DNA from: Stenotrophomonas sp. 278
Lineage (GTDB): Bacteria; Pseudomonadota; Gammaproteobacteria; Xanthomonadales; Xanthomonadaceae
DNA length: 64,000 nt
Assembly: GCF_003935715.1 (NCBI RefSeq)
Contig: NZ_RHPP01000002.1
Span: 1 to 64,000 of the forward strand
Direction: 5' to 3'
A program made the translations under genes and the position numbers. A model generated the notes under the pieces. The model was not told where the DNA came from. It saw nothing but the letters and a program-made list of their open reading frames with translations, and did no database searches. Of this stretch, positions 39,445 to 64,000 are shown piece after piece (the first letter of the stretch is position 1; the number at the start of each line of letters is the position of its first letter).

Positions 39445-39634
39445 CTGAGCCAGGGTAAGACTCAGAACTGTGCCCCCCAATGCCATGCGGTCGATCTGGC
39501 AGTCCTGAAAGCGAGTTGAGTCGCAGTTCGTGCAAAGCGCACTGCGATGTTCGGTGTGGAAGACGGGCATGACCCGTAGGTGGCCCCCGGAAGGGGCGAT
39601 ACATCCATTCGATCGTATGTCAGAGGGGAGCGTC

Positions 39635-39685
39635 ATGAGTGCTTGTACGTTTCGCCGTACCGCGCAGCCGGGGGCCCGTTCATGA
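39635..39685 (+). CDS. Short leader ORF overlapping the receptor start
   Basis: A 16-codon frame (MSACTFRRTAQPGARS) starts with ATG at 39635. It has a near-perfect ribosome site (GAGGGGAG) 4 bases upstream, far better than that of the receptor. Its TGA overlaps the receptor ATG as ATGA at 39682-39685. It could couple translation of the receptor to the leader. No sequence bias suggests a classic attenuator. Confidence 0.4.
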   Translation: MSACTFRRTAQPGARS

Positions 39686-42600: not shown

Positions 42601-42807
42601 GCCAGCCGGAACCCGTACTATGTGGAAGAGTATGACCAGTGGGATCTCAGCGTGAACTACACCCTGAATGACAACTGGTCGTTCGGCCTGGAAGCGATCA
42701 ACCTGACCGGGGAAGACGTCCGTTGGCGTTCGCGCACCTCGCAGATGATCGTGAAACTGGCCGACCAGAGTCCGCGTTACATGCTGGGCGTCCGCTACCG
42801 GTTCTGA
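39682..42807 (+). CDS. TonB-dependent receptor of the xylan locus
   Basis: This is a 1041-aa outer-membrane receptor. From the ATG at 39682 a signal peptide (RAMFTFVGGVLVINPAFAQ) is followed by a Pro/Gln linker and a TonB-box-like QLDTVQVTGIRNS. The plug has AISAEDIGKFPDTNLAESLQ, RITGISIERR and ARGFGPQFNMVTLNGRQMPG. The barrel ends DQSPRYMLGVRYRF with the usual terminal Phe. The gene lies just downstream of the xyl-box and upstream of SapC, cupin-8 and halogenase-like genes, the arrangement of xylo-oligosaccharide receptors in Xanthomonas and Caulobacter. It would import xylan fragments into the periplasm with TonB energy. A stem-loop separates it from sapC. Confidence 0.93.
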   Translation: MSRKLSKITSRAMFTFVGGVLVINPAFAQDAATPAAAPQQQASPTQLDTVQVTGIRNSLSQAMDIKRDSAGVVDAISAEDIGKFPDTNLAESLQRITGISIERRDGEGAQVTARGFGPQFNMVTLNGRQMPGADAFGAAGQVAIGGIDGGTRAFNFAQLAAEAINGIEVYKTSQANVPSGGIGATINILTARPFDHNGLVASAGAKAVYDDSQPFDSDLTPELSGIFSYSNPDKTWGVGVSASYQKRKGGSVQATNNYWNIQPWTGTLPGNPNVVNAPAVGALYARPNDLRYAFAEFERERINGQAVLQFAPTDAVTLTLDYTYSTNEIEENRGEQGMWLQNSNYTDVTFDTSGAIATPVYIREIAGTKDFGLEQQRSMQKYKLGSLGFNAKWDVTDRFKLSFDAHNSKNESLPNDPLTGGGSIFSSIAGTNNCTTGPHCGGSYVQEMVFNNGLPVGTKVWYPTTADAIAGTNGVVNPAFESGEIGSQVLRINSQTQISEIKQGRIDGEWNFDSGRFQFGVDSSKQTTHRIQAAENYNTLGDWGVANVDGDVANGLMDLLQPVNIVGLFDDYSANSFTAWRGDAGRLAQWAGANYAANLGVSPQNAADNRVEEKTKSAYFQVELDGELGGMRTNTRLGVRYETTDVVSTSIIAIPEAIEWQSNNDFRVVLSDEQQPFTEKNKYSYILPNLDFSIDLMDDLKGRVSFGKSIARAPIGNLYAGPTAQQPFGSVLIDPSVRASGTAQNPQLKPLESDNLDLALEWYFADASYVSVTYWNKQVANFIGNTIVQENLYGLRDPTSGPDAQAALAFLTSGACVSQVGAANAAACNANDTALFTALALLRNNPAGLGAYDGTDAQVLATEAAYDLYGTAADPLYQFNVNRPINQNESKLHGWELGGQYFFGETGFGVLANYTIVNGDVGYNDAGDPNIDQFSLTGLSDTANVMLMYEKYGWSVRLAWNWRDEYLILANQGASRNPYYVEEYDQWDLSVNYTLNDNWSFGLEAINLTGEDVRWRSRTSQMIVKLADQSPRYMLGVRYRF

Positions 42808-42829
42808 TCCGGGCAGTAGACGGCAACAC

Positions 42830-42855
42830 GGTGCCGCTGCCTCGGCGGCGGCACC
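42830..42855 (+). other. Intercistronic stem-loop after the receptor gene
   Basis: GGTGCCGC and GCGGCACC pair over 8 bp with a 10-base loop, 22 bases after the receptor stop. There is no T tract. It probably protects the receptor mRNA 3' end or reduces read-through to sapC. Confidence 0.45.
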
Positions 42856-42888
42856 TTCGCAATGTTTCTGCTCGAATCGGACGACACC

Positions 42889-43644: not shown

Positions 43645-43647
43645 GCC

Positions 43648-44667: not shown

Positions 44668-44680
44668 GGGGAGCATCGCA

Positions 44681-46253: not shown

Positions 46254-46276
46254 TTCAACGTTCAAAGGGTGTTTTG

Positions 46277-47770
46277 ATGGATCTGGTTGCGGGAATCGAT
46301 GCGGGTACACAGAGCCTGAAGGTGGTGGTCTACAACCCCGCAGGGCGGGCCATCGTGGCTGCTGCGAGCGCGCCGCTCGAACTGAGCAGCAGTGCCGATG
46401 GCAGCCGTGAGCAACGGCCCGCCGACTGGGTGACCGCGCTGCATGCGTGTTTCGCTGCGCTGGACCCCAGCGTCCGCGCGAACATCGCCGCATTGGCGGT
46501 ATCCGGCCAGCAGCATGGGTTCGTGCCTGTGGATGCGGCCGGGGAGGTGCTGGCACCGGCCAAACTCTGGTGCGACACCAGCACGTCGGCCGAGTGCGCG
46601 CAGATCATGGACGCGGTGGGTGGTCCCGCCCGTACCATAGAACTGGCAGGCAACCCGGTGCTGACCGGCTACACCGCGTCGAAGCTGCCGTGGACCAAGG
46701 CGCATCGCCCCGAAGCCTACGCGCGCCTGGCGACCATCCTGTTGCCCCACGACTACCTCAATTTCGTGCTGACCGAGCAGCGTTTCTGCGAGTACGGGGA
46801 CGCCTCCGGTACCGGCTGGCTGGACGTGCGAACCCGCACCTGGTCCAGCGAGCTGCTGCGCGCCACCGATCCGGCGCGGGACCTTGCGGAATGCCTGCCG
46901 CCCATCGCCGAGCCTGATGCCTTGTTCGACATGGATCCTGCCATCGCGGCCGCACTGGGCATCCCGGCAACCGCGAAGGTGGCGGTGGGTGGGGGCGACA
47001 ACATGATGGCCGCCATTGGGACCGGCTGCGTGGTCCCCGGGCGGTTGGCGATGAGCCTGGGCACCTCGGGAACGCTGTTTGCGTACTCCGACACGCCGGT
47101 GGTGGACCCGGAGGGCGCGTGGGCTGCGTTCTGTTCCTCCACCGGCGGCTGGCTGCCCTTGATCTGCACCATGAACTGCACCGTGGTGACCGAGCAGGTC
47201 GCCAAGGCGTTCGGGTTCAGCACCCGCGATGGCGACGCGCACCTGCGCGTTACCGCGCCAGGGGCCGGGGGGCTGGTGATGCTGCCGTTCCTCAACGGCG
47301 AGCGCACCCCCGATCTGCCGCACGGCAAAGGCGTACTTGCAGGGCTGGACACCACCAACATGACCCCGGCGCACCTCTACCGCGCGGCGATGGAAGGGGC
47401 CACGTACAGCCTGAAGTATGGCTACGACGCCTTCGTGCGTGCCGGCATGCAGTTCGATCGCATTGTGCTGACCGGCGGCGGCAGCAACAGCGCCGAATGG
47501 CGGCAGCTGGTGGCCGATGTGTTCGGCTTGCCGGTGGAGGTGCCGGTGCAGGCTGAAGGTGCGGCCTTCGGTGCCGCACTGCAGGCGCTGTGGGCGCTGG
47601 GCCGTTCACGCGGCGATGCGGCCTCCATTCACGACATCACCCATCGGCATGTCGCGATGGATACAGCGCTTTCGGCACGCCCGGATCCGGCGCGGACCCA
47701 GGCCTACGCCAACGCATACGCCCGCTATCTCCAACACCTCGACGCCATCACGCCGCTGCAGCGCGGCTGA
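46277..47770 (+). CDS. xylB: Xylulokinase
   Basis: This 497-aa FGGY-family kinase starts at the ATG at 46277, with AAAGGG 8 bases upstream. The N-terminal phosphate motif is [25 protein letters not shown] contains the conserved substrate region. The second ATP motif is [13 protein letters not shown], then [24 protein letters not shown] and the C-terminal adenosine motif [20 protein letters not shown]. It phosphorylates D-xylulose to xylulose-5-phosphate for the pentose phosphate pathway. It is followed by xylA after 44 bases, and a xyl-box-like site overlaps its promoter region. Confidence 0.95.
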
Positions 47771-47814
47771 TCTCACTTTTCGCGATACCTCGCATAACCA
47801 AAGGAACATGCAGC

Positions 47815-49149
47815 ATGAGCACGCAGCCCTACATCGGCGCCAAGGAGTACTTCCCCGGCATCGGCCGCATCCCGTTCGAAGGTCGCGGCTCGGACAATCC
47901 GCTGGCGTTCAAGGTCTATGACGCGAACAAGGTCATCGGTGGCAAGACCATGCAGGAGCACCTGCGGTTCGCTGTGTGCTACTGGCATACCTTCTGCAAC
48001 GCCGGGCATGATCCGTTCGGCCCGGGCACCCGCCACTTCCCGTGGGAGTCCAGCTTGCCGATGGCGAGTGCTGAAGCCAAGGTGGATGCGGCGTTCGAGT
48101 TCTTCACCAAGCTCGGCGTGCCGTACTGGTGCTTCCACGACATCGACCTGGCCCCGGACGCCGACGACCCGGCCCAGTACGAGAAGAACCTGAAGCACAT
48201 GGTCGGGCTGGCCAAGGAGCGCCAGGACGCTACTGGCATGAAGCTGCTGTGGGGCACGGCCAACCTGTTCTCGCACCCGCGCTACATGAACGGTGCCTCG
48301 ACCAATCCGGACTTCGCCGTGGTTGCGCGCGCCGCCGTGCAGGTCAAGGCTGCACTGGAAGCCACCGTGGAGTTGGGTGGGGAGCACTATGTGTTCTGGG
48401 GTGGCCGCGAAGGCTATGCCTCGCTGGTGAATACCCAGATGAAGCGGGAGGTCGAGCATTTCGCCCGCTTCCTCACCATGGCGCGCGACTACGGTCGCAG
48501 CATCGGCCTGAAGGGCAATTTCCTGATCGAGCCCAAGCCGATGGAGCCGATGAAGCACCAGTACGACTTCGACAGTGCCACCGTGGCCGGCTTCCTGAAG
48601 GAGCATGGGTTGGAGAAGGACTTCAAGCTCAATATCGAAGCCAATCACGCGACGTTGTCCGGCCACACCTTTGAACACGACCTCCAGGTCGCATCCGATC
48701 ATGGTCTGCTCGGCAGCATCGACGCCAATCGCGGCAACGCACAGAACGGCTGGGATACCGACCAGTTCCCGACCGACCTGTACGACACGGTCGGTGCCAT
48801 GCTGGTGGTGCTGCGCCAGGGTGGGCTGGAAGGCGGCTTGAACTTCGACGCCAAGGTGCGCCGTGAATCGACCGATCTGGACGATCTGTTCATTGCCCAC
48901 ATCGGCGGCATGGATGCGTTTGCACGCGGGCTGGAAGTGGCCCATGGGCTGTTGAATGACTCGCCGTGGGAGCAGTGGCGGAAGGAGCGTTACGCCAGCT
49001 TCGACAGCGGTGCCGGCCAGCAGTTCGAACGGGGAGCCCTCAGTCTTGCCGACTTGGCGGAGTTGGGTGCGAAGGGTGGCGAGCCGAAGCAGATCAGTGG
49101 CAGGCAGGAACGTTACGAGAACCTGATCAACCAATACCTGTTGCGCTGA
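47815..49149 (+). CDS. xylA: Xylose isomerase
   Basis: This is a 444-aa enzyme, the long (class II) type, with the ATG at 47815 and AAAGGAA upstream. Signature segments are [32 protein letters not shown] (catalytic His), [12 protein letters not shown] (first metal region), [17 protein letters not shown] (metal Glu) and [19 protein letters not shown] (metal Glu and His), then [17 protein letters not shown]. It converts D-xylose to D-xylulose in the cytoplasm. It lies between xylB and a GH3 gene in the same direction. Confidence 0.96.
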
Positions 49150-51745: not shown

Positions 51746-52804
51746 CTATCGACGCTTCGGCGGCTTCGCAACCGAGTCCCGCACCACCAGACGGTGCGGG
51801 ACCAGGTGGTCGGTCAAGGCGAGGGGCGCTTCGCCCTTGTGGCGGATGCTGCGCAGCAGGAGCTCGAGCGCGGCATCGGCCATCGCGCCAATCGGCTGCT
51901 GCACGGTGGTCAGCTCCGGCCACACCGTGGTGGCGGCCGAGCTGTCATCGAAACCCACCACGGAGAGGTCACGCGGGACATCGAGACCGCGGCGGTGCGC
52001 GACCGAAATGACGGCCGCGGCCATGTCGTCATTGCTGGCGAACACGGCCGTGGGTGGGCTTGGGTGGGAAAGCAGCTTTTCTGCCGCGTCGAGGCCGGAA
52101 CGGTAGGTGTAGTCGCCGTGTTGCACCAGCCCGGATTCGACCTCCAGCCCGGCCTCATGCAACGCCGTCACAAACCCTTCGTAGCGCCGTGCGCTCGCGC
52201 TGAGATCGTGGCGCCCGCAGATGAACCCGATGCGGGTATGGCCGTGCTGGATGAGGTGTTCGGCCATTTCCCTGCCGGCGTGGAAATCGTCGATGCGGAC
52301 GCAGGAGATACCGTCGCCCAGCCGGCCCGAGGCAATCGCGATGACTGGAATGCCCGCCTTGACCAGCTCGCTCACCGCCGCCCGGGATTCGCACAGCGGC
52401 GGGGGCAGAATCACCCCGTCCACGCGGCCGGACAACGCGCGCGCGGCCTTGCGTTCCGCCGCCGGCTCCAGCGTGTCCCAGTAGTCGATGACCAGCTGGA
52501 TGGCGGCATTGGAGGCAACCCGCAGCAGGCCGACCAGCAGCTCGCGCAGGTAGGCACCGCTGGGATTGGTGTAGATCAGTGCAACGCGGATGTGCTGGGC
52601 AGCGGCCAGGGTACTGGCGGCCAGATTCGGTGTGTAGCCCAGCTCCCGCACCGCATCCATCACCCGTTCGCGCGTGGTGTCGCGTACCTTGCCCTGGTTG
52701 ATCACCCGCGACACGGTCATCGGCGACACGCCGGCCCGTGCTGCCACCTCGTCGATCGTCACGCCGCTGGTTTTGCGGCGGACCGATTTCTTCGGCTTGT
52801 CCAA
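51746..52804 (-). CDS. LacI-family transcriptional regulator, second paralogue
   Basis: This 352-aa protein is closely similar to the LacI protein at 38303. I choose a TTG start at 52804 (MDKPKKSVRRK), with GAAGGG 8 bases upstream; it aligns with the paralogue's N-terminus. The longer frame to 52915 would overlap the divergent GH67 gene. The HTH reads VTIDEVAARAGVSPMTVSRVINQ. The effector domain shows RVALIYTNPSGAYLRELLVG and VFASNDDMAAAVISVAHRRG. It diverges from GH67 with only 53 bases between starts and converges with the GH3 gene. It may control the GH67-esterase-GH43-GH3-MFS operon; no xyl-box is seen in that gap. Confidence 0.87.
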   Translation of the reverse strand: MDKPKKSVRRKTSGVTIDEVAARAGVSPMTVSRVINQGKVRDTTRERVMDAVRELGYTPNLAASTLAAAQHIRVALIYTNPSGAYLRELLVGLLRVASNAAIQLVIDYWDTLEPAAERKAARALSGRVDGVILPPPLCESRAAVSELVKAGIPVIAIASGRLGDGISCVRIDDFHAGREMAEHLIQHGHTRIGFICGRHDLSASARRYEGFVTALHEAGLEVESGLVQHGDYTYRSGLDAAEKLLSHPSPPTAVFASNDDMAAAVISVAHRRGLDVPRDLSVVGFDDSSAATTVWPELTTVQQPIGAMADAALELLLRSIRHKGEAPLALTDHLVPHRLVVRDSVAKPPKRR

Positions 52805-52857
52805 TACGCGTACCCTTCGATCTCTGTGACGCCGCCGCGCTGCAGCGAGGGCGGATG

Positions 52858-55113
52858 ATGGCGCACCCTGCGCACGACCCCAGCTTACCCCGTTTGTCAG
52901 CCACGCGGCCTGCACGCGACCTTGTCACGCGGTGTCATCTGTTTCTGGTGATGTTCGCTGCATGGCTGGCATGTGCGGGCAGCGTGCGCGCGGAGGACGG
53001 TCATGCGTTGTGGATGCGGTACGTTCCGCTGGCACCCGCACTGGCCGCAGATCGCGGCACGCAGCTGCGGGAGATGGTTGCACCCGGTCACACACCCACG
53101 CAGCGCGTCGCGCGCGAGGAACTGGTGCGGGGCCTCACCGGCCTGCTGGGGCATGCCCCCACGCTGCGGGACACGGTCGCCGGTGACCAGACGCTGGTCA
53201 TCGGCACGCCGGAATCGTCGCCGCTGATCGCCCCGTTGCGCGACGAGCTGGCTTCGCTGGGTACCGAGGGCTACCTGATCAGGCGCGCGCAACAGGGTGG
53301 GCATCAGGTGACCCTGGTCGCCGCGCAGAAGGACATCGGCGTACTGTATGGCGTGTTCCATCTGCTGCGTCTGCTGCAGACGGGTGCGGCGCTGGAACAC
53401 CTGGAACTGCGCGAATCGCCCCGGGTGGCGCTGCGGGTACTCGATCACTGGGACAATCTGGATGGCCATGTCGAACGCGGCTACGCCGGGCGTTCGCTGT
53501 GGGACTGGCAGAGCCTGCCGGAGTGGCGCGACCCGCGCTACACCGACTATGCGCGGGCCAACGCCTCGATAGGCATCAACGGTGCCGTGCTGAACAACGT
53601 CAACGCCAGCGCCTGGAGCCTGGCACCGGACTATCTGCTCAAGGCGGCCGCGATCGCGGACACGCTGCGGCCCTACGGCATCCGCGTGTACCTGAGCGCG
53701 CGCTTCAGCGCCCCGATCGAGCTGGGTGGGCTTCCTACCGCCGACCCGCTTGATCCCGAAGTGCAGCGCTGGTGGCGCAGCAAGGTGGACGAGATCTATT
53801 CGCGCATACCGGATTTCGGCGGATTTCTGGTCAAGGCGAACTCCGAAGGGCAACCGGGACCGCAGGACTACGGTCGGTCCCATGCAGAAGGGGCGAACCT
53901 GCTGGCGGACGCGCTGGCAGCGCATGGTGGCGTGGTGATGTGGCGTGCGTTCGTCTACGCGCATGACGTTCCTGCGGACCGTACCACCCAGGCCTACACC
54001 GAGTTCAAAGGTCTCGACGGAAAGTTCCGCTCCAACGTGATCGTGCAGGTGAAGAATGGACCGCTGGATTTCCAGCCCCGGGAGCCGTTCCATCCGCTGT
54101 TCGGTGCAATGCCGCGAACGCCATTGATGATGGAGTTCCAGATCACCAAGGAGTATCTCGGTTTCGCCACGCACCTGGTGTATCTGGGGCCCTTGTACGA
54201 GGAGGTACTGCGCTCGGACACCCACGCGCGCGGTGAGGGCTCCACCGTGGCACGGGTGATCGACGGCACGCTGGAGGGTCATGCGCTGACCGGCATGGCC
54301 GGCGTGGCCAATATCGGCAACGACAGAACGTGGACCGGCTCGCATTTCGACCAGGCCAACTGGTATGTGTTCGGTCGCCTGGCGTGGAATCCGCATCAAT
54401 CCGCCCGCGATATCGCCGTGGATTGGGCTGCGATGACCTTCTCGCCCGACCCGGCAGTGGTGCGGCCCATCGTCGACATGATGATGAACTCGCGCGAGGC
54501 AGCGGTGAACTACATGACCCCGCTGGGCCTGCATCACCTGATGGCACGCGGGCACCATTACGGCCCCGGCCCGTGGGTGGATGGCGGCCCGCGCGCGGAC
54601 TGGACTTCGGTGTACTACCACCGCGCCGATCGTGACGGCATCGGCTTCGACCGTACCCGGGGCGGCAGCAATGCAGTGGCGCAGTATGCGCCGACGGTGG
54701 CAGCGCGCTTTGGGGACATTGCCCAGGTACCGGAATCGCTGCTGCTGTGGTTCCACCACGTGCCGTGGGACCACCGCATGGCCTCTGGCCGCCCGCTATG
54801 GGATGAACTCGTCTCGCGCTACTCGCTGGGGGTGCGCCAAGTGCAGGCCATGCAGAAAACCTGGGCCACCCTCAACCCCGTAGAGCCGGGTCTTACCCGG
54901 CTGCCTTTCGCGATAGACCCCGAACGCCACGCCAACATCGCCGCCTTCCTGGATATCCAGCTCCGCGAAGCCCAATGGTGGCGCGACGCGAGCGTGTCGT
55001 ACTTCCAATCCATCAGCGGCAGACCACTCCCGGCGGGCGAAGCCGCACCCCCTTACCCCCTTTCGTACTACCAGTCGCTCCAGTTCCCCTCCGCACCAGG
55101 AGACGGACGATGA
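52858..55113 (+). CDS. GH67 alpha-glucuronidase, exported, with an in-frame REP near the 3' end
   Basis: This protein of about 751 aa starts at the second of two ATGs (52855/52858), with GAGGG 6 bases before 52858. A hydrophobic signal (FLVMFAAWLACAGSVRA) ends near residue 45. GH67 features are VALRVLDHWDNLDGHVERGY, IGINGAVLNNVNAS, IPDFGGFLVKANSEGQPGP (Glu/Asp region) and LMMEFQITKEYLGFATHLVY. GH67 enzymes remove 4-O-methylglucuronic acid from the end of xylo-oligosaccharides. Near residue 675 the frame crosses a REP hairpin and encodes VEPGLTRLP, extra relative to the family, before DPERHANIAAFLDIQ resumes. The next gene overlaps its stop as ATGA. Confidence 0.92.
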   Translation: MAHPAHDPSLPRLSATRPARDLVTRCHLFLVMFAAWLACAGSVRAEDGHALWMRYVPLAPALAADRGTQLREMVAPGHTPTQRVAREELVRGLTGLLGHAPTLRDTVAGDQTLVIGTPESSPLIAPLRDELASLGTEGYLIRRAQQGGHQVTLVAAQKDIGVLYGVFHLLRLLQTGAALEHLELRESPRVALRVLDHWDNLDGHVERGYAGRSLWDWQSLPEWRDPRYTDYARANASIGINGAVLNNVNASAWSLAPDYLLKAAAIADTLRPYGIRVYLSARFSAPIELGGLPTADPLDPEVQRWWRSKVDEIYSRIPDFGGFLVKANSEGQPGPQDYGRSHAEGANLLADALAAHGGVVMWRAFVYAHDVPADRTTQAYTEFKGLDGKFRSNVIVQVKNGPLDFQPREPFHPLFGAMPRTPLMMEFQITKEYLGFATHLVYLGPLYEEVLRSDTHARGEGSTVARVIDGTLEGHALTGMAGVANIGNDRTWTGSHFDQANWYVFGRLAWNPHQSARDIAVDWAAMTFSPDPAVVRPIVDMMMNSREAAVNYMTPLGLHHLMARGHHYGPGPWVDGGPRADWTSVYYHRADRDGIGFDRTRGGSNAVAQYAPTVAARFGDIAQVPESLLLWFHHVPWDHRMASGRPLWDELVSRYSLGVRQVQAMQKTWATLNPVEPGLTRLPFAIDPERHANIAAFLDIQLREAQWWRDASVSYFQSISGRPLPAGEAAPPYPLSYYQSLQFPSAPGDGR
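54880..54904 (+). repeat. GTAG REP element inside the GH67 gene
   Basis: GTAG followed by a perfect 8-bp stem AGCCGGGT/ACCCGGCT (54884-54891 and 54895-54902) with a CTT loop. The head matches the REPs at 5645 and 38208. It is translated in frame. Confidence 0.8.
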
Positions 55114-57095
55114 ACCGCCACGCCGCGTGGTTCACGCGAACGATCGTCGTCATCGCGGCCTGCTGGGCGTCACCCGGCAGCGCACAGGACTCCGTGACGC
55201 CTCTGCTGCACCCGCTGTTCCAGGATCACGCCGTCCTGCAACGCGACCAACCGATCACGGTATGGGGGCATGCCGCACCCGGTACGCCTGTAACGGTGAC
55301 ATTCGCCGCGCAGAACGTCACCACGCAGCCAGACGCCGACGGCCGTTGGCGCGCGACGCTGCGCCCGCTGGCTGCGGGTGGACCGTATCAGATGACCGTG
55401 CGGGCAGGGCGGCGTACCCAGACCCTGCAGGACCTGCAGATGGGCGATGTGTGGCTGTGCTCCGGGCAGTCCAACATGGAACTGCCGGTGTGGCGCGCGC
55501 TCAACGCAGACGGTGAGATCGCCGCTGCAGCACATCCGTCTATTCGTATGTTCATGGTCCCGAAGCATGCGGCCACCTCACCGCAGGAGCACTTCCACGA
55601 CGCGGCTGCCTGGGCACCGGTGACGCCAGAGACGGTGCGTGAATTCTCTGCGGCCTGCTACTACTTCGGACGCGAGCTGCAGAAGGCGGTCAGCGTGCCG
55701 ATGGGGTTGATCCAGGCGGCCTGGGGCGGCTCACGCATCGAAGCCTGGACCAGCGCCCAGGCCCTGCGTGCACAAGGCGGCCTGGGCCAGGCGCTGGACA
55801 TGCTCGCATTGCATGGCCGCGATCCGGCAGCAGCAAACCGTCGCTGGGGTGAGCACTGGCAGCAGTGGTGGACCGCGCGTCCAGACACCGCGGCCGGCGA
55901 CACGCCTTGGCAGCCCAATCCAGGCGATGCCACGTGGCTCCCGGTGCCGGCCACGCTCGGTGCATGGGAGCGCTGGGGCGTGCCTGCGCTGGCGGACTAC
56001 AACGGCATGGTCTGGTACCGCAGCCAGGTCACGCTGACCGCCGCGCAGGCAGCGCAGGGTGCCACGCTTGAGCTCGGTCCGGTTGATGAAACCGACATGA
56101 CCTGGGTGAACGGGGTCGGCGTGGGCAGCCAGTACGCGCCCGGCCAGGCACGTTCGTATCCACTGCCGCCCGGTTTGCTGAAAGCCGGCACCAATCACGT
56201 CGTGATCAACGTGCTGGACACCTGGGCCGACGGTGGACTGGCCGGCCCGGCGTCCGCGTACGCGATGCGTTTCGGCGATGGCACCCGCGTCGCGCTGGAC
56301 GCAAGGTGGCAGTATCGTGCCGCGCCCGGCCCGGATGCGCCTCCGTTGGCACCCTGGCATGCCGCCACCGGTCTGTCGACGCTTTACAACGGCATGATCT
56401 CCCCCCTCGGTCACATCGGACTGCGCGGTGTGGCGTGGTACCAGGGGGAATCCAACACCGGCGATGGCCGGGGTTATGCACCGCGATTACGCACCCTGCG
56501 TGACGACTGGCGCAGGCAGTTCGGCGCGCACACGCCGCTGCTGATCGTGCAGCTGGCCGGTTACGGCCAGCCGACGGTGGCTCCGGTGGAAAGCGGCTGG
56601 GCCGAGGTGCGCGACGCACAGCGTCGCGTGGCTGCGGAAGACCCGCAGAGCGGGCTTGCCGTTGCCATCGACATCGGCGACGCCTACGACATTCACCCGC
56701 CGAACAAGCAGGAGCTTGGCCGGCGCCTGGCGCGGCTGGCCCGGCACGTGGCGCACGGGGAAGCCGGATTGTCTCCGTCCGGCCCGACCGCACGCGGTGC
56801 GACACGTACTTCGTCCGGAGTGAGCGTGCACTTTGACGATGTCAGTGGCGCACTGGTCACGACTGGCGCGCGGCGACCCATCGGATTCGAGCTTTGCACC
56901 GCCGATGGCTCGCCGTGCACCTACGCCGAAGCCGAGCTCCACGGACACGATGTTGTTCTTCGTGGCCCGGCCGCACAGACCTCGACCCGCGTGCGCTACT
57001 GCTGGGCAGACGGCCCGGTCTGCACGCTGCGCGACCGCAGCGGTGCGCCGGCGGGGCCGTTCGAGCTGGTCATCGTCGAGGGCGCCATACGGTGA
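55110..57095 (+). CDS. Sialate O-acetylesterase-type carbohydrate acetylesterase
   Basis: This 661-aa protein starts at the ATG at 55110, overlapping the GH67 stop. The signal peptide (TIVVIAACWASPGSAQ) is clear. An N-terminal beta domain (HPLFQDHAVLQRDQPITVWG) leads to the SASA/SGNH hydrolase core: the catalytic Ser is in VWLCSGQSNMELPVW (near 115), with YYFGRELQKAVSVPMGLI. GVAWYQGESNTGDG (near 446) follows, and the His is in GDAYDIHPPNKQELG (near 527). A jelly-roll insert (about residues 290-400) lies between the blocks. In a xylan operon such enzymes remove acetyl groups from xylo-oligosaccharides, which fits its place between GH67 and GH43. Confidence 0.9.
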   Translation: MNRHAAWFTRTIVVIAACWASPGSAQDSVTPLLHPLFQDHAVLQRDQPITVWGHAAPGTPVTVTFAAQNVTTQPDADGRWRATLRPLAAGGPYQMTVRAGRRTQTLQDLQMGDVWLCSGQSNMELPVWRALNADGEIAAAAHPSIRMFMVPKHAATSPQEHFHDAAAWAPVTPETVREFSAACYYFGRELQKAVSVPMGLIQAAWGGSRIEAWTSAQALRAQGGLGQALDMLALHGRDPAAANRRWGEHWQQWWTARPDTAAGDTPWQPNPGDATWLPVPATLGAWERWGVPALADYNGMVWYRSQVTLTAAQAAQGATLELGPVDETDMTWVNGVGVGSQYAPGQARSYPLPPGLLKAGTNHVVINVLDTWADGGLAGPASAYAMRFGDGTRVALDARWQYRAAPGPDAPPLAPWHAATGLSTLYNGMISPLGHIGLRGVAWYQGESNTGDGRGYAPRLRTLRDDWRRQFGAHTPLLIVQLAGYGQPTVAPVESGWAEVRDAQRRVAAEDPQSGLAVAIDIGDAYDIHPPNKQELGRRLARLARHVAHGEAGLSPSGPTARGATRTSSGVSVHFDDVSGALVTTGARRPIGFELCTADGSPCTYAEAELHGHDVVLRGPAAQTSTRVRYCWADGPVCTLRDRSGAPAGPFELVIVEGAIR

Positions 57096-58786
57096 TGAAG
57101 CTACGCATCATGGTGCTCGTTCTGATCCTGGCCGCCATGGGGCTCGCGCGTGCGCCGCAACCGGTACTGCCGGTCTATTTCGACTGGTTTGAATACAGCG
57201 GCCACGATGTAGCCTTCGACGATGCTCTACCGGCCGGGCATTACCGCAACCCGGTGCTCGCCGGATTTCACGCCGACCCGAGCGTTGTCGCCGCCAACGG
57301 CCGCTTCTATCTGGTCAACTCCAGCTTTGCGTACTTTCCCGGCATTCCGGTGTTTGAAAGCACCGACCTGGTGCACTGGAACCAGATCGGCAATGTCATT
57401 GATCGCCCGGGCATGGTGGATTTTGACGGCCTGGGCGTGTCCCGTGGCATCTTCGCGCCGGCCATTTCGCATCACGACGGCCTGTTCTACGTGATCACCA
57501 CCGCCGTCGACAGCGGCGGCAACTTCATCGTCACCGCGCGCGATCCGGCCGGTCCATGGTCGGAGCCACATTGGCTGCCCAGCATCGGCGGCATTGATCC
57601 GTCGCTGTACTTCGATGAGGACGGCCGTGCCTACCTTGTGAACAATGACGCGCCAGACGGGAAGCCGCGTTACGAGGGGCACCGGGCCATCTGGATGCAG
57701 CAGATCGACCGGACCACGCTGCAGCCGGTCGGACCACGCAAGGTGCTGGTGGACGGGGGCGTGGACCCGGCGACCAAGCCGATCTGGATCGAAGGGCCCC
57801 ACCTCTACAAACGCGAAGGATGGTATTACCTGTCCGCCGCGGAAGGCGGCACGGGTCCGCAGCATTCGCAGGTAGTGCTGCGCAGCCGCAGCGTCTGGGG
57901 GCCCTATGTGCCGTTTGCGGGCAATCCGATCCTCACCCAGCGCGACCTCCCGGCAGACAGGCCCCTGCCCATCACCAACGCTGGCCATGCCGACCTGGTG
58001 GAAGGACCGGATGGCTCCTGGTGGGCGGTATTCCTGGCAAGCCGCAACTACCAGCAACGCCACTACAACACCGGCCGCGAGACCTACCTGCTGCCGGTGC
58101 AGTGGCAGGACGGCTGGCCGATCATCCTGCCCGCCGGGCAGACCATCCCGTATGTAGCGAAGGCACCGTCCTGGATGCAGGGCGGACTGTCGCAGGCACC
58201 GCGCACCGGCAATTTCGTGGAACGCGATGATTTCAACGGCTTGAAGCCGGGTGATGGATGGCTACAGGTACGGGTTCCCTCCAGGATGTGGATCGATTTG
58301 AGCAGCCGTCCCGGCAGTCTGGCCGTGCATCCGTTGCGAGACGATCTCAACACCCGGCGCAACCCGTCGTTCCTCGGCCGCCGCCAGCAGCATCTGCGCT
58401 TCGAAGCCAGTACCGAAATGACGCTCCCGTCGTCGGGCGTCGCGGCCGGACTGGCGGCCTACCAGAGCGAAGACTACTGGTACTTCTTTGGCGTTCGTCA
58501 GCTGGACGGGAATCGCATGGCCGTGTTCGCTGAAGGACGCGACGGCGGCGGAGTCACGAAGCCCCTGGCCAGCCGCGAACTGAAGGCAACCTCGTCTCTA
58601 CGCCTGAAGATCAGCGGCGACGAAGGCCGCTACGCCTTTGCGTTCGACAGCGACGATGGATGCGGTTGGCAGACGCTGAAGGGCGACGTCGACGGCACCG
58701 TTTTGAGTACGGATCGTGCAGGGGGCTTTGTCGGCACCCTGCTGGGACCATTCGCGCGCGACGAGCGCGCATCGAGGAGCAGATGA
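57095..58786 (+). CDS. GH43 beta-xylosidase/arabinofuranosidase, exported
   Basis: This 563-aa protein has its ATG at 57095 sharing one base with the esterase stop (TGATG). The N-terminus (LRIMVLVLILAAMGLARA) is a signal or anchor. The GH43 propeller shows PVLAGFHADPSVVAANGRFY (general base Asp near 61), FAPAISHHDGLFYVITT, GGIDPSLYFDEDGRAY (modulating Asp) and IWIEGPHLYKREGWYY (acid Glu). The C-terminal beta-sandwich (about residues 375-563; LRFEASTEMTLPSSG) is the GH43_C2-type domain of longer family members. It is likely to remove xylose or arabinose side units in the periplasm. The following GH3 start overlaps its stop region. Confidence 0.92.
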   Translation: MKLRIMVLVLILAAMGLARAPQPVLPVYFDWFEYSGHDVAFDDALPAGHYRNPVLAGFHADPSVVAANGRFYLVNSSFAYFPGIPVFESTDLVHWNQIGNVIDRPGMVDFDGLGVSRGIFAPAISHHDGLFYVITTAVDSGGNFIVTARDPAGPWSEPHWLPSIGGIDPSLYFDEDGRAYLVNNDAPDGKPRYEGHRAIWMQQIDRTTLQPVGPRKVLVDGGVDPATKPIWIEGPHLYKREGWYYLSAAEGGTGPQHSQVVLRSRSVWGPYVPFAGNPILTQRDLPADRPLPITNAGHADLVEGPDGSWWAVFLASRNYQQRHYNTGRETYLLPVQWQDGWPIILPAGQTIPYVAKAPSWMQGGLSQAPRTGNFVERDDFNGLKPGDGWLQVRVPSRMWIDLSSRPGSLAVHPLRDDLNTRRNPSFLGRRQQHLRFEASTEMTLPSSGVAAGLAAYQSEDYWYFFGVRQLDGNRMAVFAEGRDGGGVTKPLASRELKATSSLRLKISGDEGRYAFAFDSDDGCGWQTLKGDVDGTVLSTDRAGGFVGTLLGPFARDERASRSR

Positions 58787-61455
58787 TGATGCGGAACCCC
58801 TGTTCGCTGTATCGCACGCTGGCCCTGAGCGCCGCCATCGCGATGGCTACCGCTGTTCATGCGGCGCAACCGCAACCGTGGCTGGATACGTCCGCCTCGT
58901 TTGAAACCCGCGCTGCGGCGCTGGTGTCACAGATGACGCTGGAGGAAAAGGCGGCGCAGATGCAGAACGCCGCCCCGGCCATCGAGCGGCTGGGTGTTCC
59001 GGCGTACGACTGGTGGAACGAGGGTCTGCACGGCGTGGCGCGGGCAGGGCAGGCGACGGTGTTCCCGCAGGCCATCGGCCTGGCCGCCACCTTTGACGTG
59101 CCCCTGATGCAGCAGGTGGCCACCACCATCAGCGACGAGGCGCGCGCCAAACACCATCAGTTCGTCCGCGAGAACCAGCACGGGCGCTACCAGGGGCTGA
59201 CGTTCTGGTCGCCGAACATCAATATCTTCCGTGACCCGCGCTGGGGCCGGGGCCAGGAAACCTATGGCGAAGACCCTTACCTGACCGCGCGCATGGGCGT
59301 GGCCTTCGTGCACGGCCTGCAGGGTGACGACCCGGTGTACCGCAAGCTGGACGCCACCGCCAAGCATTTCGCGGTGCACAGCGGGCCCGAGGCCGACCGC
59401 CACCATTTCGACGCCCGCCCCAGCAAGCGGGACCTGTATGACACCTACTTCCCTGCGTTCGAGGCGCTGGTGAAGGAGGGCGACGTCGATGCGGTGATGG
59501 GGGCGTACAACCGGGTATACGGCGAATCCGCAAGCGCCAGCCAGTTCCTGCTGCGCGACGTGCTGCGCCGCGACTGGGGATTCAAGGGCTATGTGGTGTC
59601 CGACTGCTGGGCCATCGTGGACATCTGGAAGCATCACAAAATCGAGCCCACCCGCGAGGCGGCGGCGGCGCTGGCGGTGAAGAACGGCACTGAGCTGGAA
59701 TGCGGACAGGAGTACGCCACGCTGCCGGCGGCGGTGCGTCAGGGCTTGATCAGCGAAGCCGAGATTGATGATGCGGTGACACGCCTGTTCGCAGCGCGGA
59801 TGCGATTGGGCATGTTTGACCCGGCCGAGAAGGTGCGCTGGGCACGCATTCCTGCTTCGGTGAACCAGGCACCGGCGCACGACGCGCTTGCGTTGAAGGC
59901 CGCCCAGGAATCGCTGGTCCTGCTGAAGAACGATGGTGTGCTGCCGCTTGCGCCCACCGTCAAGCGCATTGCCGTGGTGGGCCCGACCGCCGACGACACC
60001 ATGGCGTTGCTGGGGAACTACTTTGGCACCCCGGCCGCACCGGTCACCGTGCTGCAGGGCATCCGCGATGCCGCCAAGGGCGTTGAGGTGCGTTACGCAC
60101 GCGGGGTGGACCTGGTGGAGGGACGCGACGATCCCAGTGCCACGCCCCTGATCGAGGCCGCCTACCTGCGGCCGTCGGCCGATTCCCCCGAGCGCGGTCT
60201 GCGCGGCGAGTACTTCCGCACGGCCGATCTCTCCGGTACGCCGGCATTGGTGCGCACCGACGCCCAGATTGGTTTCCGCTGGGATCGTGGCTCGCCCACC
60301 GACAACCTGATGGCTCGGGGCGAGGCCGGGCCGGGGCAGGGCGTTCCAAACGATGGCTTCAGCATCCGCTGGAGCGGCCAGCTGCTGCCGCCTGTGTCGG
60401 GGCGCTATCGGGTCGAGGCCGCCGCCGATGACGGCTACCGGCTGTACGTGGATGGAAAGCAGGTACTGGACCATTGGGCACCGAGTGACCGCATGCGCGG
60501 CGACGGCGTGGAACTGGAGCTGCAGGCCGGGCGGGCGTACGACCTGCGTCTGGAGTACTTCGACGCCGAGCGCGATGCCGGCGTGCGGCTGGGCTGGCGC
60601 ATGCCCGGTGCCAAGCCGCCGTTCGAGGAGGCGCTGGACGCCGCGCGCAGCGCGGACGTGGTGGTGTTCGTCGGTGGCCTTACCGGGGATGTCGAGGGTG
60701 AAGAGATGAAGGTCAACTATCCCGGCTTCGCCGGCGGTGACCGCACCGACCTGCGACTGCCTGCCACCCAGCGCACGCTGCTGGAGGCACTGCAGGCCAC
60801 GGGCAAACCGGTGGTGATGGTGCTCACCGGCGGCTCGGCGCTGGCGGTGGAGCCTTCGAAACTGTCGGCCATTCTGATGAGCTGGTACCCGGGCCAGCGC
60901 GGCGGCACGGCCGTGGGCCAGGCGCTGTTCGGCGAGGTCAATCCGGGAGGACGCCTGCCGGTGACCTTCTACACGGCGGACCAGGCGATGCCGGCGTTTG
61001 ACGATTACACGATGGAAGGGCGGACCTATCGTTACTTCCGGGGCACACCGCTGTATCCGTTCGGGCATGGGCTGTCGTATACCCGGTTCGACTACGACAG
61101 GCTGCGGTTGGACACGCCGCGCATCGCTCCGGACGGTCGCCTCAACGTCGCGGTGGACATTGCCAACACCGGCAAGCGCGCCGGCGACGAAGTAGTGCAG
61201 TTGTACGTACGGCGACTGCAGGCCGGGACGGGCGAGGCGCAGCAGAACCTGCGTGGCTTCCAGCGCGTGCATCTGGCCCCCGGCGAGAAGCGGACGGTGG
61301 CATTCGAACTGGACGTTCAACAGGCGCTGCGGCAGTACGACGAAGCTGCTTCCGCTTACAAGGTACCCGCCGGACGCTATGAGGTCCGGATAGGCGGCTC
61401 CAGTGCCGATGCCCGCGTGCGGTCCGGATTCGAGGTGGAGGCCGCACGTGACTGA
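58786..61455 (+). CDS. GH3 beta-xylosidase/glucosidase with PA14 domain
   Basis: This is an 889-aa protein from the middle of three consecutive ATGs (58783, 58786, 58789); GAGGAG lies 6 bases before 58786. The signal peptide (LALSAAIAMATAVHA) is clear. The GH3 barrel has MTLEEKAAQMQNAAPAI, YDWWNEGLHGVARAG, RDPRWGRGQETYGEDPYLT and KHFAVHSGPEADRHHF, with the nucleophile Asp in YVVSDCWAI (near 274). A PA14 carbohydrate-binding domain (about residues 468-608: GRYRVEAAADDGYRLYVDG) is inserted in the second GH3 domain. A fibronectin-III-like C-terminus (GDEVVQLYVRRL) ends the protein. It is a probable periplasmic beta-xylosidase. The next gene's GTG start lies 8 bases inside its 3' end. Confidence 0.93.
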   Translation: MMRNPCSLYRTLALSAAIAMATAVHAAQPQPWLDTSASFETRAAALVSQMTLEEKAAQMQNAAPAIERLGVPAYDWWNEGLHGVARAGQATVFPQAIGLAATFDVPLMQQVATTISDEARAKHHQFVRENQHGRYQGLTFWSPNINIFRDPRWGRGQETYGEDPYLTARMGVAFVHGLQGDDPVYRKLDATAKHFAVHSGPEADRHHFDARPSKRDLYDTYFPAFEALVKEGDVDAVMGAYNRVYGESASASQFLLRDVLRRDWGFKGYVVSDCWAIVDIWKHHKIEPTREAAAALAVKNGTELECGQEYATLPAAVRQGLISEAEIDDAVTRLFAARMRLGMFDPAEKVRWARIPASVNQAPAHDALALKAAQESLVLLKNDGVLPLAPTVKRIAVVGPTADDTMALLGNYFGTPAAPVTVLQGIRDAAKGVEVRYARGVDLVEGRDDPSATPLIEAAYLRPSADSPERGLRGEYFRTADLSGTPALVRTDAQIGFRWDRGSPTDNLMARGEAGPGQGVPNDGFSIRWSGQLLPPVSGRYRVEAAADDGYRLYVDGKQVLDHWAPSDRMRGDGVELELQAGRAYDLRLEYFDAERDAGVRLGWRMPGAKPPFEEALDAARSADVVVFVGGLTGDVEGEEMKVNYPGFAGGDRTDLRLPATQRTLLEALQATGKPVVMVLTGGSALAVEPSKLSAILMSWYPGQRGGTAVGQALFGEVNPGGRLPVTFYTADQAMPAFDDYTMEGRTYRYFRGTPLYPFGHGLSYTRFDYDRLRLDTPRIAPDGRLNVAVDIANTGKRAGDEVVQLYVRRLQAGTGEAQQNLRGFQRVHLAPGEKRTVAFELDVQQALRQYDEAASAYKVPAGRYEVRIGGSSADARVRSGFEVEAARD

Positions 61456-63928
61456 CCCGAGCTCCACCGCCGCCACCGAACACATACTGTCGGTCCGCGA
61501 AAAGCTGGGCTACAGCCTGGGCGATCTGGCGGCAAATCTCATCTTCCAGACGCTGGTCACCTACCTGGCGTTCTTCTACACCGATGTGTTCCGGTTGCCG
61601 CCTGCCACGGCGGCCACCATCATTTTCGTGATCGGCCTGCTCGGCGCGTTCGTGTTCACGCCGTTGATCGGCATTGCCGCGGACCGGACCACCTCGCGCT
61701 GGGGCAGGTTCCGCCCGTGGATCCTGTGGACAGCAGTGCCGTTCGGCGTGCTGTCGTTGCTTGCCTTCAGTACGCCGGACTTCAGTGAGCGCGGCAAGGT
61801 GGCGTACGCCTTGGCCACCTATGGCCTGTTGATGCTGGTGTATGCCGCCAACAACCTGCCGTACTCCGCGCTGAGCGGCGTGCTGACCGGCAGCATGGCC
61901 CAGCGCAACAGCCTGTCGGCCTACCGCTTCGTGGCGGTGATGATCGCCCAGTTCATCATCCAGGTTCTGCTGTTGCCGCTGGTGCTGATTCTGGGCGACG
62001 GCGACCGCGTGCTTGGCTTCGAGCGGGTGATGATGGTGTTTGCGGTGGTGGGTACGGCGTTCTTCCTGATCACCTTCGCCACCACACGCGAACGCATTGT
62101 TGCCGCCAAGGAGCAGACGGGAGGCGTAGTGCAGGATCTGACCGACCTGCTGCGCAATCGTCCCTGGCAGGTGATGCTGGCGTTGACGATCCTGGTGTTC
62201 ATGAATCTCGCCCTCAAGGGCGGCACCTACATCTATTATTTCCAGTACTACATGAGTGAGGCCGCGCTGGCCGGCTTCCTTGAACGCACGGGATTCAATG
62301 GTCTCATCCAGGGATTGAACGCGGGGATCAGAGGGGCAGGGCTGTCGGGCTTCACCTGGCCGGAAGATCCGGCGACTTCCGCGTTCAGCCTGTTCAATGC
62401 CTGCGGCATCATCTGCATGATTCTCGGTATCGGCGTTTCGCGCCGTCTGGCGGATCGCTTCGGCAAGCGCGACGTCTTCGGCGCTGCCTTGTTGGCCTCC
62501 ACCGTGTTCCTGCTGGTGTTCTATCTGTTCCCGCCCACGGCCGTAGCCGTGGCATTCGTGTCTTTCATGCTGCATGGTTTCTGCTACGGCATCACGATTC
62601 CGCTGCTATGGGCGATGATCGCGGACGTCGCCGACTACTCCGAGTGGAAGAACCATCGCCGCGCCACCGCCATCATCTTCTCCGCGATGCTGTGCGGGCT
62701 GAAGGTCGGGTTGAGCGTGGGCGGTGCCCTGGTGGCCGGCATACTCGCGCACTACGGCTATCAGGCCGGCGCGGCGCAGCAGCCGGAGGGCGTGATTGAT
62801 GGCATCCGGCTGACCGTCAGCATCTATTGCTCCATCCCGTTCCTGCTGGCGGTGGCGCTGCTGTTTCTCTACGAGATCGACAAACGCATGGAAAACCAGA
62901 TCGAGCAAGAGCTTCAGCAGCGCCGTGAGCGGCGCGACCTGCAGCAGCTGGCGACGCACGCCATTTCGCAACCGCTGGTGACCCACATGTTCACGGCCGA
63001 TCCGTCGGCACACGTGTTTGAGGGACGGCTGTATATCTACCCCTCGCACGATATCGACGCCGGCGCGCCGTTTGACGATGAGGGCGGCCACTTCGGCATG
63101 GAGGACTACCACGTGCTGCGCATGGACACGCCCACGGCCGGGGCCGTTGACTGTGGCGTGGCCCTGCACGTACGTGACGTGCCGTGGGCCGAGAAGCAGA
63201 TGTGGGCACCTGACGCGGCGTATCGTGACGGACGCTACTACCTTTATTTCCCTGCCAAGGACCCGCAGGGAATTTTCCGCATCGGCGTGGCGGTGGCCGA
63301 CCGCCCGGAGGGTCCTTTCACGGCTGAGCTCGAGCCGATGAATGGTACGTATTCGATCGACCCGGCTGTATTCGAGGACGAAGACCGGGAACATTACCTC
63401 TACTTTGGCGGGATATGGGGCGGTCAGCTGCAGAAATACCGCGACAATCGTTTTGATGCGGCTCATGAGGAGCCCACCGGCGATGCACCGGCCCTGGGCC
63501 CGAGGGTGGGGCGATTGGACGCAGGCATGACGCAGCTGGCCGAACCGACGCGCGAGGTGGTCATCCTGGACGAACACGGGCAGCCGCTGCGCGCCGACGA
63601 CCACGCGCGCCGCTTCTTTGAAGGGCCATGGCTGCACAAGGTCGGCGGCAGGTACTACCTGTCGTATTCCACCGGCAACACGCATCTGCTGTGCTACGCG
63701 GTGGGCGACAGTCCGTACGGGCCGTTCACCTACAAGGGCGTGATCCTCACGCCTGTGGTCGGCTGGACGACCCACCACTCCATCTGCCAGTTCGAGGGAC
63801 AGTGGTGGCTGTTCTATCACGACGCGCTGTTGTCGGGCGGTGTGACCCACCTGCGCTCGGTCAAGTGCACGCCACTGCAGATCGACCCGGATGGCAGCAT
63901 CCGGACAATCAACCCGTATGGAGCCTGA
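61448..63928 (+). CDS. MFS (GPH-type) sugar transporter fused in frame to a GH43 glycosidase
   Basis: This is one uninterrupted 826-aa frame with a GTG start at 61448, preceded by GGAGG. Residues 1 to about 480 are a complete glycoside-pentoside-hexuronide transporter: KLGYSLGDLAANLIFQTLVT, then GRFRPWILWTAVPFG, then MIADVADYSEWKNHRRATA, with about 12 helices ending in LLAVALLFLYEIDK. A charged helical linker (EQELQQRRERRDLQQ) follows. Residues about 510-826 are a complete GH43: FTADPSAHVFEGRLYIYPS (base Asp), MWAPDAAYRDGRYYLYFP, TYSIDPAVFEDED (modulating Asp) and FFEGPWLHKVGGRYY (acid Glu). Since both ends of MFS proteins face the cytoplasm, the glycosidase should be tethered inside and act on incoming xylo-oligosaccharides. 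In most relatives I know these are two separate genes. Confidence 0.9.
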   Translation: MTDPSSTAATEHILSVREKLGYSLGDLAANLIFQTLVTYLAFFYTDVFRLPPATAATIIFVIGLLGAFVFTPLIGIAADRTTSRWGRFRPWILWTAVPFGVLSLLAFSTPDFSERGKVAYALATYGLLMLVYAANNLPYSALSGVLTGSMAQRNSLSAYRFVAVMIAQFIIQVLLLPLVLILGDGDRVLGFERVMMVFAVVGTAFFLITFATTRERIVAAKEQTGGVVQDLTDLLRNRPWQVMLALTILVFMNLALKGGTYIYYFQYYMSEAALAGFLERTGFNGLIQGLNAGIRGAGLSGFTWPEDPATSAFSLFNACGIICMILGIGVSRRLADRFGKRDVFGAALLASTVFLLVFYLFPPTAVAVAFVSFMLHGFCYGITIPLLWAMIADVADYSEWKNHRRATAIIFSAMLCGLKVGLSVGGALVAGILAHYGYQAGAAQQPEGVIDGIRLTVSIYCSIPFLLAVALLFLYEIDKRMENQIEQELQQRRERRDLQQLATHAISQPLVTHMFTADPSAHVFEGRLYIYPSHDIDAGAPFDDEGGHFGMEDYHVLRMDTPTAGAVDCGVALHVRDVPWAEKQMWAPDAAYRDGRYYLYFPAKDPQGIFRIGVAVADRPEGPFTAELEPMNGTYSIDPAVFEDEDREHYLYFGGIWGGQLQKYRDNRFDAAHEEPTGDAPALGPRVGRLDAGMTQLAEPTREVVILDEHGQPLRADDHARRFFEGPWLHKVGGRYYLSYSTGNTHLLCYAVGDSPYGPFTYKGVILTPVVGWTTHHSICQFEGQWWLFYHDALLSGGVTHLRSVKCTPLQIDPDGSIRTINPYGA

Positions 63929-64000
63929 GCCGGTGATCCCGGTAGACGATGCGCAGGCCCCGATGCCGGCCGGCCCACTGCACTGGCTGCGTTCCGGTGC
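63918..64000 (+). CDS. Start of the next gene of the xylan operon (partial)
   Basis: An ATG at 63918 overlaps the fusion gene's stop by 11 bases and opens a frame to the window end (MEPEPVIPVDDAQAP, then PLHWLRSG). A GTG at 63933 is an alternative start. Only 27 codons are visible and no family can be named. Its overlap with the previous gene suggests that the operon continues. Confidence 0.45.
   Translation, partial: MEPEPVIPVDDAQAPMPAGPLHWLRSG

Follow-up and report, generated by a model that had tools for sequence, protein, structure and literature searches.

An open reading frame joining a GPH-family transporter to a predicted GH43_1 exo-xylosidase in Stenotrophomonas

Fusions of a transporter with a glycosidase have been proposed to boost sugar uptake, and the only described family of them that we found is of the MFS-GH17 kind. 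In this family FbGH17b (FORMB_24740), reported from marine Flavobacteriia in 2018, joins an MFS transporter to a GH17 exo-glucosidase; its authors proposed coupled hydrolysis and uptake, and wrote at that time that no such fusion had been described in other bacteria (PMC6246565). Here we analyzed a 64,000-nucleotide stretch of Stenotrophomonas sp. 278 (contig NZ_RHPP01000002.1, positions 1 to 64,000; hereafter the window), in which a single gene encodes a GPH-family transporter, a charged linker and a GH43 domain. Like FbGH17b as described, the window protein has an N-terminal 12-helix MFS part and a C-terminal exo-glycosidase in one protein, encoded in a polysaccharide-use locus. Unlike FbGH17b, whose enzyme is a GH17 beta-1,3-glucosidase acting on laminarin, it carries a GH43_1 enzyme in a xylan setting, belongs to the Gammaproteobacteria, lacks the MelB-type cation site in its transporter and is of separate origin. 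With an MFS transporter and a C-terminal glycosidase in one open frame, it is a transporter fusion with a carbohydrate-active enzyme of a kind already known, of which MFS-GH43 is a second, independent case in another enzyme family and phylum.

Literature searches aimed at MFS-GH43 fusions found none; the survey of C-terminally fused MFS proteins by Willson et al. (2019), which may list one, lay outside their coverage. In 296 sampled genomes, 10 GPH matches have frames of 782-821 amino acids, and the five that were read were all MFS_2 plus GH17 by Pfam. The GPH-GH17 fusions of Bacteroidota, 777-820 amino acids long, lie at L159:463-2925 (-), L165:547-2925 (-), L166:565-2898 (-), L182:1456-3810 (-) and L183:2058-4403 (+). 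A 2026 paper on Muricauda describes an MFS transporter gene and GH17 genes separately (PMC13188888).

Other known systems share one or the other half of this arrangement. XacGH43_1 of Xanthomonas citri (PDB 6xn0-6xn2), at 70-71% identity the closest characterized enzyme, has the same subfamily, catalytic triad and calcium-site His as the fused enzyme, but is reported as a free monomer (PMC7809346). E. coli YagG-YagH likewise places a GPH transporter beside a GH43 gene, and YagG is 33% identical to the window transporter over most of its length; however, these are two genes, YagG keeps the cation ligands Asp55 and Asp59 of the GPH transporter MelB, and YagH is a distant GH43 (27% over 166 columns). 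BACOVA_04386 of the B. ovatus PUL-XylS is described as a cytoplasmic GH43 xylosidase that finishes short xylo-oligosaccharides, but it is a separate protein in another phylum (PMC4491172). LacS of S. thermophilus is, as here, a GPH transporter with a cytoplasmic C-terminal domain, although that domain is a regulatory IIA and not an enzyme (PMC10703360, PMC10710835). Lastly, MelB D59C, a GPH protein deprived of a cation ligand, is reported to act as a uniporter, which likens it to the transporter described here, but it is a laboratory mutant and handles galactosides (PMC8329300).

The fused frame and its domains

The fused gene and its parts are as follows.

61448..63928, forward strand: fused gene for a GPH/MFS transporter, a linker and a predicted GH43_1 exo-xylosidase; 826 amino acids, GTG start
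61448..62917, forward strand: GPH-family transporter part, residues 1-490, with 12 transmembrane (TM) helices by hydropathy and structure model
62282..62383, forward strand: periplasmic insert between TM7 and TM8, residues 279-312, with no counterpart in YagG
62882..62983, forward strand: charged linker, residues 479-512, with a helix at 479-503, predicted local distance difference test scores (pLDDT) <50 at 494-504 and the fusion junction near residue 494
62993..63925, forward strand: GH43_1 domain, residues 516-826, with catalytic Asp518 (62999), Asp638 (63359) and Glu725 (63620) and calcium-site His776 (63773)

The frame is stop-free over 826 codons from the GTG at 61448 to the TGA at 63926-63928. 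Both halves were found at 123 loci, 41 of them fused; once identical sequences were removed, 28 of 101 were fused, nine of these from single-contig genomes. From these counts we excluded L080, at a contig end, and L082-L084, which are weak GH43 paralogues, while L125, whose transporter match reads through stops, was tallied as split for conserved residues but left out when start sites and cation sites were counted (72 rather than 73 split relatives). Since the genome that contains the window is a 337-contig draft, an assembly or sequencing error might be suspected. With 28 unique sequences sharing the open frame, nine of them from genomes in one contig, the relatives refute such an artefact, to which we give virtually no credence, and the frame fusion is confirmed as genuine, neither chance nor sequencing error. 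A preliminary description, made from the window's letters, had thus read the single frame correctly, along with its 12-helix transporter and charged helical linker. As to the start, a mechanical open reading frame call begins earlier, at the GTG at 61403; the ribosome-site match ahead of the GTG at 61448 is strong (dG -9.3), and an equivalent GTG start was placed in 21 of the 28 fused genes (20 at -9.3 and one at -6.4 kcal/mol), the match beginning later and the start not being located in the remaining seven.

Pfam places MFS_2 at residues 21-278 (E = 3e-78), MFS_1 at 311-515 and GH43 at 577-817 (E = 2e-28). By sequence and fold the transporter belongs to the GPH family: it scores 334.8 bits against TIGR00792 (GPH symporter), above the cut-off of 231.35, and has 12 TM helices in a MelB-like fold. 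A hydropathy scan gave 14 segments, reduced to 12 on discarding 498-516 (score 0.53, in the linker) and 764-782 (within GH43). Lysine plus arginine residues number 27 on the N-terminal side and eight on the opposite side, in a tally that still includes 498-516 as a segment, and because of this bias both transporter ends are predicted to be cytoplasmic. Together with the homology to MelB, this would place the C-terminus and the enzyme in the cytoplasm, where the preliminary description had also put the latter. An AlphaFold model shows the 12 membrane helices, the helix at 479-503 and then a beta-propeller (mean pLDDT 81.9, predicted template modelling score (pTM) 0.59).

The best structure matches of the GH43 part are 6xn0 (E = 3e-158), CoXyl43 (5glk; 3e-134) and RS223-BX (4mlg; 1e-125), the last of which we take to be a GH43_1 enzyme, and these close matches to characterized enzymes support its predicted assignment to GH43 subfamily 1. 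Asp518, Asp638, Glu725 and His776, whose roles are known from XacGH43_1 (PMC7809346), are kept in 28/28 unique fused and 73/73 unique split sequences. Residues 493-826 of the model superpose on residues 5-338 of free XacGH43_1, and the fusion would therefore have cost each partner only a short stretch. The second GH43 gene of the operon (GH43_C2) was considered as a source of the fused domain and rejected, as it shows only 26% identity over 184 columns.

We calculated the ratio of nonsynonymous to synonymous substitution rates (dN/dS) by the Nei-Gojobori method for all pairs of the 28 fused sequences. The transporter cores and the GH43 domain have ratios of 0.10-0.12, and the 34-residue periplasmic insert, which thus evolves faster than the transporter core, has 0.22; the ratio reaches 0.24 at residues 475-494 and 0.30 at residues 495-512. 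Purifying selection acts along the whole fused frame. Four of the seven fused proteins of a second genus, g7 (L035, L116, L119 and L120), have six extra linker residues (18 nucleotides, in frame), seemingly a repeat of SDL.

Could the gene nonetheless yield two products, with an internal start or proteolysis of the linker freeing the GH43 part? The low pLDDT of the linker would suit proteolysis, and an ATG at Met481 is present in 24 of the 28 fused genes. Its mean ribosome-site energy (-2.0) is, however, close to the background median (-2.2), and the equivalent Met is also found in the tails of many split transporters. The preliminary description had named a junction error hiding a stop, with a separate start at the ATG near 62988, as a finding that would overturn it; this ATG, at Met514, occurs in the window's protein only (1/28), and with 28 unique frames open the objection falls. 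Among the 28 fused genes, no internal start close to the enzyme was found to be both conserved and preceded by a better-than-background ribosome site. This is only mild evidence for a single product because split GH43 genes also have weak sites at their starts (median -3.6), so that weakness disproves nothing. On balance we consider two products improbable.

Proposed uptake of xylo-oligosaccharides and the cation site

We think it likely that the fused protein is an inner-membrane importer for linear xylo-oligosaccharides, carrying an exo-xylosidase at its inner face and driven by hydrolysis. One inner-membrane protein would import short linear xylo-oligosaccharides from the periplasm, and the attached enzyme, lying on the cytoplasmic face directly behind the transporter gate, would remove xylose from their non-reducing ends. 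With a TonB-dependent receptor loading the periplasm with substrate and hydrolysis keeping the cytoplasmic side empty, import across the inner membrane could run downhill, and the fusion would fix transporter and enzyme 1:1, side by side. Since the C-terminal tail helix of MelB is reported to belong to the inner barrier (PMC10942615), the tether would bring the enzyme up to the inner gate. Our best reading is therefore that the sugars are imported and then hydrolyzed at the inner mouth, and the vectorial uptake and hydrolysis advanced in the preliminary description is plausible as a function; channelling from one domain to the other is something we infer.

The substrate is suggested by XacGH43_1, which is reported to release xylose from X2-X6 and to prefer xylose-derived substrates, cutting arabinofuranosides as well (PMC7809346). 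Short linear xylo-oligosaccharides would fit this activity. The branched xylo-oligosaccharides also named in the preliminary description find no support in it, and the likely debranching enzymes (GH67 and the second GH43) are encoded by separate upstream genes. The activity on arabinofuranosides and the annotation of YagG as a putative D-xylonate transporter would allow another cargo, be it arabinofuranosides, xylose itself or an exported product. Against this stand the enzyme's preference for xylose-derived substrates and an operon with GH67, GH3, XylA and XylB, and we consider another cargo quite unlikely.

How import would be driven turns on two sites in the transporter.

61643..61660, forward strand: helix II stretch Gly66 to Thr71, aligned with MelB cation ligands Asp55 and Asp59
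61844..61846, forward strand: Ala133, aligned with MelB cation ligand Thr121

The Na+ ligands reported for MelB are Asp55, Asn58, Asp59 and Thr121 (PMC10942615), and MelB mutants D59C or D59A are described as devoid of cation coupling while still supporting melibiose fermentation (PMC8329300). At the positions equivalent to 55, 58, 59 and 121, all 28 fused proteins have Gly, Phe, Thr and Ala (Gly66, Thr71 and Ala133 in the window), and there is no acidic residue in window residues 47-78 around helix II. The fused transporter thus has none of Asp55, Asp59 and Thr/Ser121; of the signature residues called intact in both halves by the preliminary description, those of the enzyme are so and those of the transporter's cation site are not. 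The 72 split relatives have Gly or Ala at 55, Phe, Ile or Val at 58, Thr or Asn at 59 (Asp in three from Prevotella) and Ala, Val, Ile, Ser or Gly at 121. All 33 GPH proteins that two genome samples contain outside this branch have Asp at 55 and 59 and either Thr or Ser at 121, and YagG, MelB and six further GPH paralogues show the same pattern. The five Bacteroidota GPH-GH17 fusions all keep Asp55 and Asp59, as do four of the five GPH proteins that had been retrieved for another purpose (L182-L186). Furthermore, a GH43_1 gene was found in the flank, of only ~1.4 kb, of 6/8 site-less transporters (the window's included) versus 0/33 of the others.

The canonical MelB-type cation site therefore appears to have been lost in this transporter branch, and ion-coupled symport should not be assumed. 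Because of this loss the transporter would not be driven by Na+ or H+ in the fashion of MelB, and we infer that it acts as a facilitator, with hydrolysis at the inner face pulling the sugar in. Both the site loss and the pairing with GH43 seem to predate the fusion, as they are present in the two-gene relatives. A bolder formulation is that a natural GPH transporter has turned into a plain facilitator driven by its own covalently attached hydrolase, the cost being paid by TonB and glycosidic-bond hydrolysis and not by a Na+ or H+ gradient, with the fusion completing an older pairing; in this full form we regard it as rather unlikely. The missing cation site makes it testable whether hydrolysis on the cytoplasmic side can take the place of ion coupling.

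Several observations weigh against this explanation of the fused protein. The relative orientation of the two domains is left open by a pTM of 0.59, the linker is the fastest-evolving part of the protein, and, since the two-gene relatives have the same type of transporter, the fusion would be dispensable for function. On the alignments, the site loss is one event on one branch and not repeated evidence, and the helix II alignment has a one-residue gap, so single positions may be off by one (entry L131b of the alignment, not a transporter, was disregarded). Site loss and xylan pairing are also not perfectly correlated: three Prevotella pairs retain Asp59 only, and Asp55 and Asp59 are both present in the Prevotella transporter of L130, which GH10 and GH43_1 genes follow, as well as in L185, where a GH10-like gene follows the transporter. 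Conversely, a GPH transporter outside the branch, L186:840-2621 (+), has Asn for Asp55 and retains Asp59. In addition, His376 in TM10, which marks the branch (28/28 fused, 69/72 split) and might carry protons, and Lys419, the equivalent of MelB Lys377, are both conserved. These two residues would allow a transporter that is still a symporter through another site, such as His376, with hydrolysis merely blocking back-flow. The lack of any acidic residue around helix II and the loss of the Thr121 equivalent speak against this; we hold retained ion coupling to be a genuine possibility, though somewhat doubtful.

Partners of these transporters vary in a few loci. In some Bacteroidota (L129, L130) a GH10 gene stands between the transporter and GH43_1 genes, L129 being site-less. 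The flank of another site-less GPH transporter (L163) showed only a distant, different GH43 (33% over 114 residues) and not GH43_1, possibly a swapped enzyme partner.

Distribution and origin of the fusion

A scan of one genome per species yielded 485 stretches encoding relatives; of the best 80, 79 have both halves, 13 fused and 66 as adjacent two-gene pairs. Matches occur in 38 of the 91 genomes of the window's genus: 21 are fused, 14 have two neighbouring genes, and of the other three one has a lone in-frame stop separating the halves, one has them on different contigs and one has GH43 only. Mapping of fused versus separate genes across the family, as proposed in the preliminary description, covered 345 genomes, 125 of them matching: full-length open frames were found in the window's genus (8) and in g7 (7 of 18 matching) and in no other genus of this sample. 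Proteins of the window's genus include exact matches to named Stenotrophomonas records. Those of g7 have identical counterparts in Xanthomonas sp. NCPPB 1128 and X. albilineans, and we therefore take g7 to be the albilineans-type Xanthomonas group. In a class-wide sample 8/369 genomes match, and the sole fused one is the window's own. Among 395 genomes of Bacteroidota, the phylum of L030 (Mariniflexile), 68 match and none is open through, scoring being limited to two candidates in each genome. Two long frames from this sample (G939 and G1175) were rejected as larger fusions, being separate transporter, GH10 (by Pfam) and GH43 genes. No relative was confirmed on viral contigs, and among 125 matching plasmid records one covers at least 80% of the query, there as two annotated genes. 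Two contigs labelled Eremiobacteraeota and Saprospiraceae (L023, L026) carry transporter-GH43 pairs 65-72% identical to the window; either binning error or gene transfer would explain the labels.

In a tree of 53 of the 101 unique rows, all fused rows fall on one side of one branch (Shimodaira-Hasegawa-like approximate likelihood ratio test 99), and three FastTree trees built from all 101 rows recover them as a single clade, which indicates that the fusion arose once. The junction is ~76 nucleotides shorter than in sister two-gene loci, with the transporter stop, the spacer and the enzyme start gone and the frame closed, which points to a loss of ~76 bases as the origin of the fusion. The fused Xanthomonas proteins nest within the Stenotrophomonas ones, whereas split Xanthomonas pairs share ~70% identity with the window. 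Stenotrophomonas therefore appears to have passed the fused gene, together with the adjacent GH3 gene, to the albilineans-type Xanthomonas lineage (L007, L035, L114-L120). GH3 is upstream in 28/28 fused loci, and a mutarotase gene is downstream in 21/28, the seven without it in the flank being the g7 loci.

The fusion may have been neutral, an operon compacted by deletions in which the two proteins act as before and are merely tethered. This explanation is kept alive by the neighbouring GH3-transporter spacer, which was lost in the same clade: the distance between the match ends is negative in 27/28 fused loci (+2 in L004, where the match starts at residue 3), versus +8 to +68 nucleotides in six split loci with GH3. 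It would also suit a linker that evolves fastest (dN/dS 0.30) and is poorly ordered in the model, and the report that free XacGH43_1 is monomeric and active (PMC7809346). Yet no stop interrupts the frame in any of the 28 unique sequences, the fusion was retained after its spread to another genus, no reversion to two genes is seen within the clade among the 101 rows, and an independent fusion of a GPH transporter with a GH17 hydrolase is reported to be common in marine Flavobacteriia (PMC6246565). We therefore lean toward a fusion that contributes to uptake, while giving neutrality a real, if lesser, chance. The two-gene relatives in the same genera amount to a natural experiment, in which closely related plant-associated bacteria have this transporter and enzyme either joined or separate, and the fusion offers a natural template for engineering the uptake of xylan fragments.

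The xylan locus around the fused gene

The fused gene lies near the end of the window, and the xylan context proposed for it in the preliminary description is supported by XylA and XylB in the same locus. The neighbouring genes are the following, those marked as extents being open reading frame limits.

39580..42807, forward strand: TonB-dependent outer-membrane receptor
46274..47770, forward strand: xylulokinase XylB
47590..49149, forward strand: xylose isomerase XylA (open reading frame; the true start is probably later)
51746..52915, reverse strand: LacI-type regulator, divergent from the run of genes from GH67 to the fused gene
52738..55113, forward strand: GH67 alpha-glucuronidase (extent; Pfam)
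54975..57095, forward strand: SASA-type acetylesterase (extent; Pfam)
57119..58786, forward strand: GH43 with a C2 domain, the second GH43 of the operon (extent; Pfam)
58786..61455, forward strand: GH3 beta-glycosidase with PA14, its stop overlapping the fused-gene start by 8 nucleotides
63918..64000, forward strand: start of an aldose 1-epimerase (mutarotase) gene, overlapping the fused gene by 11 nucleotides and running off the window

The mutarotase matches Pfam Aldose_epim (E = 2e-22) and falls under the cut-off of the only NCBIfam model matched. The locus list also places a GH3 gene between XylA and the divergent LacI regulator. The stretch 39580-46210 holds the TonB-dependent receptor and, after it, SapC, cupin-8 and tryptophan-halogenase genes; XylB and XylA come immediately next.

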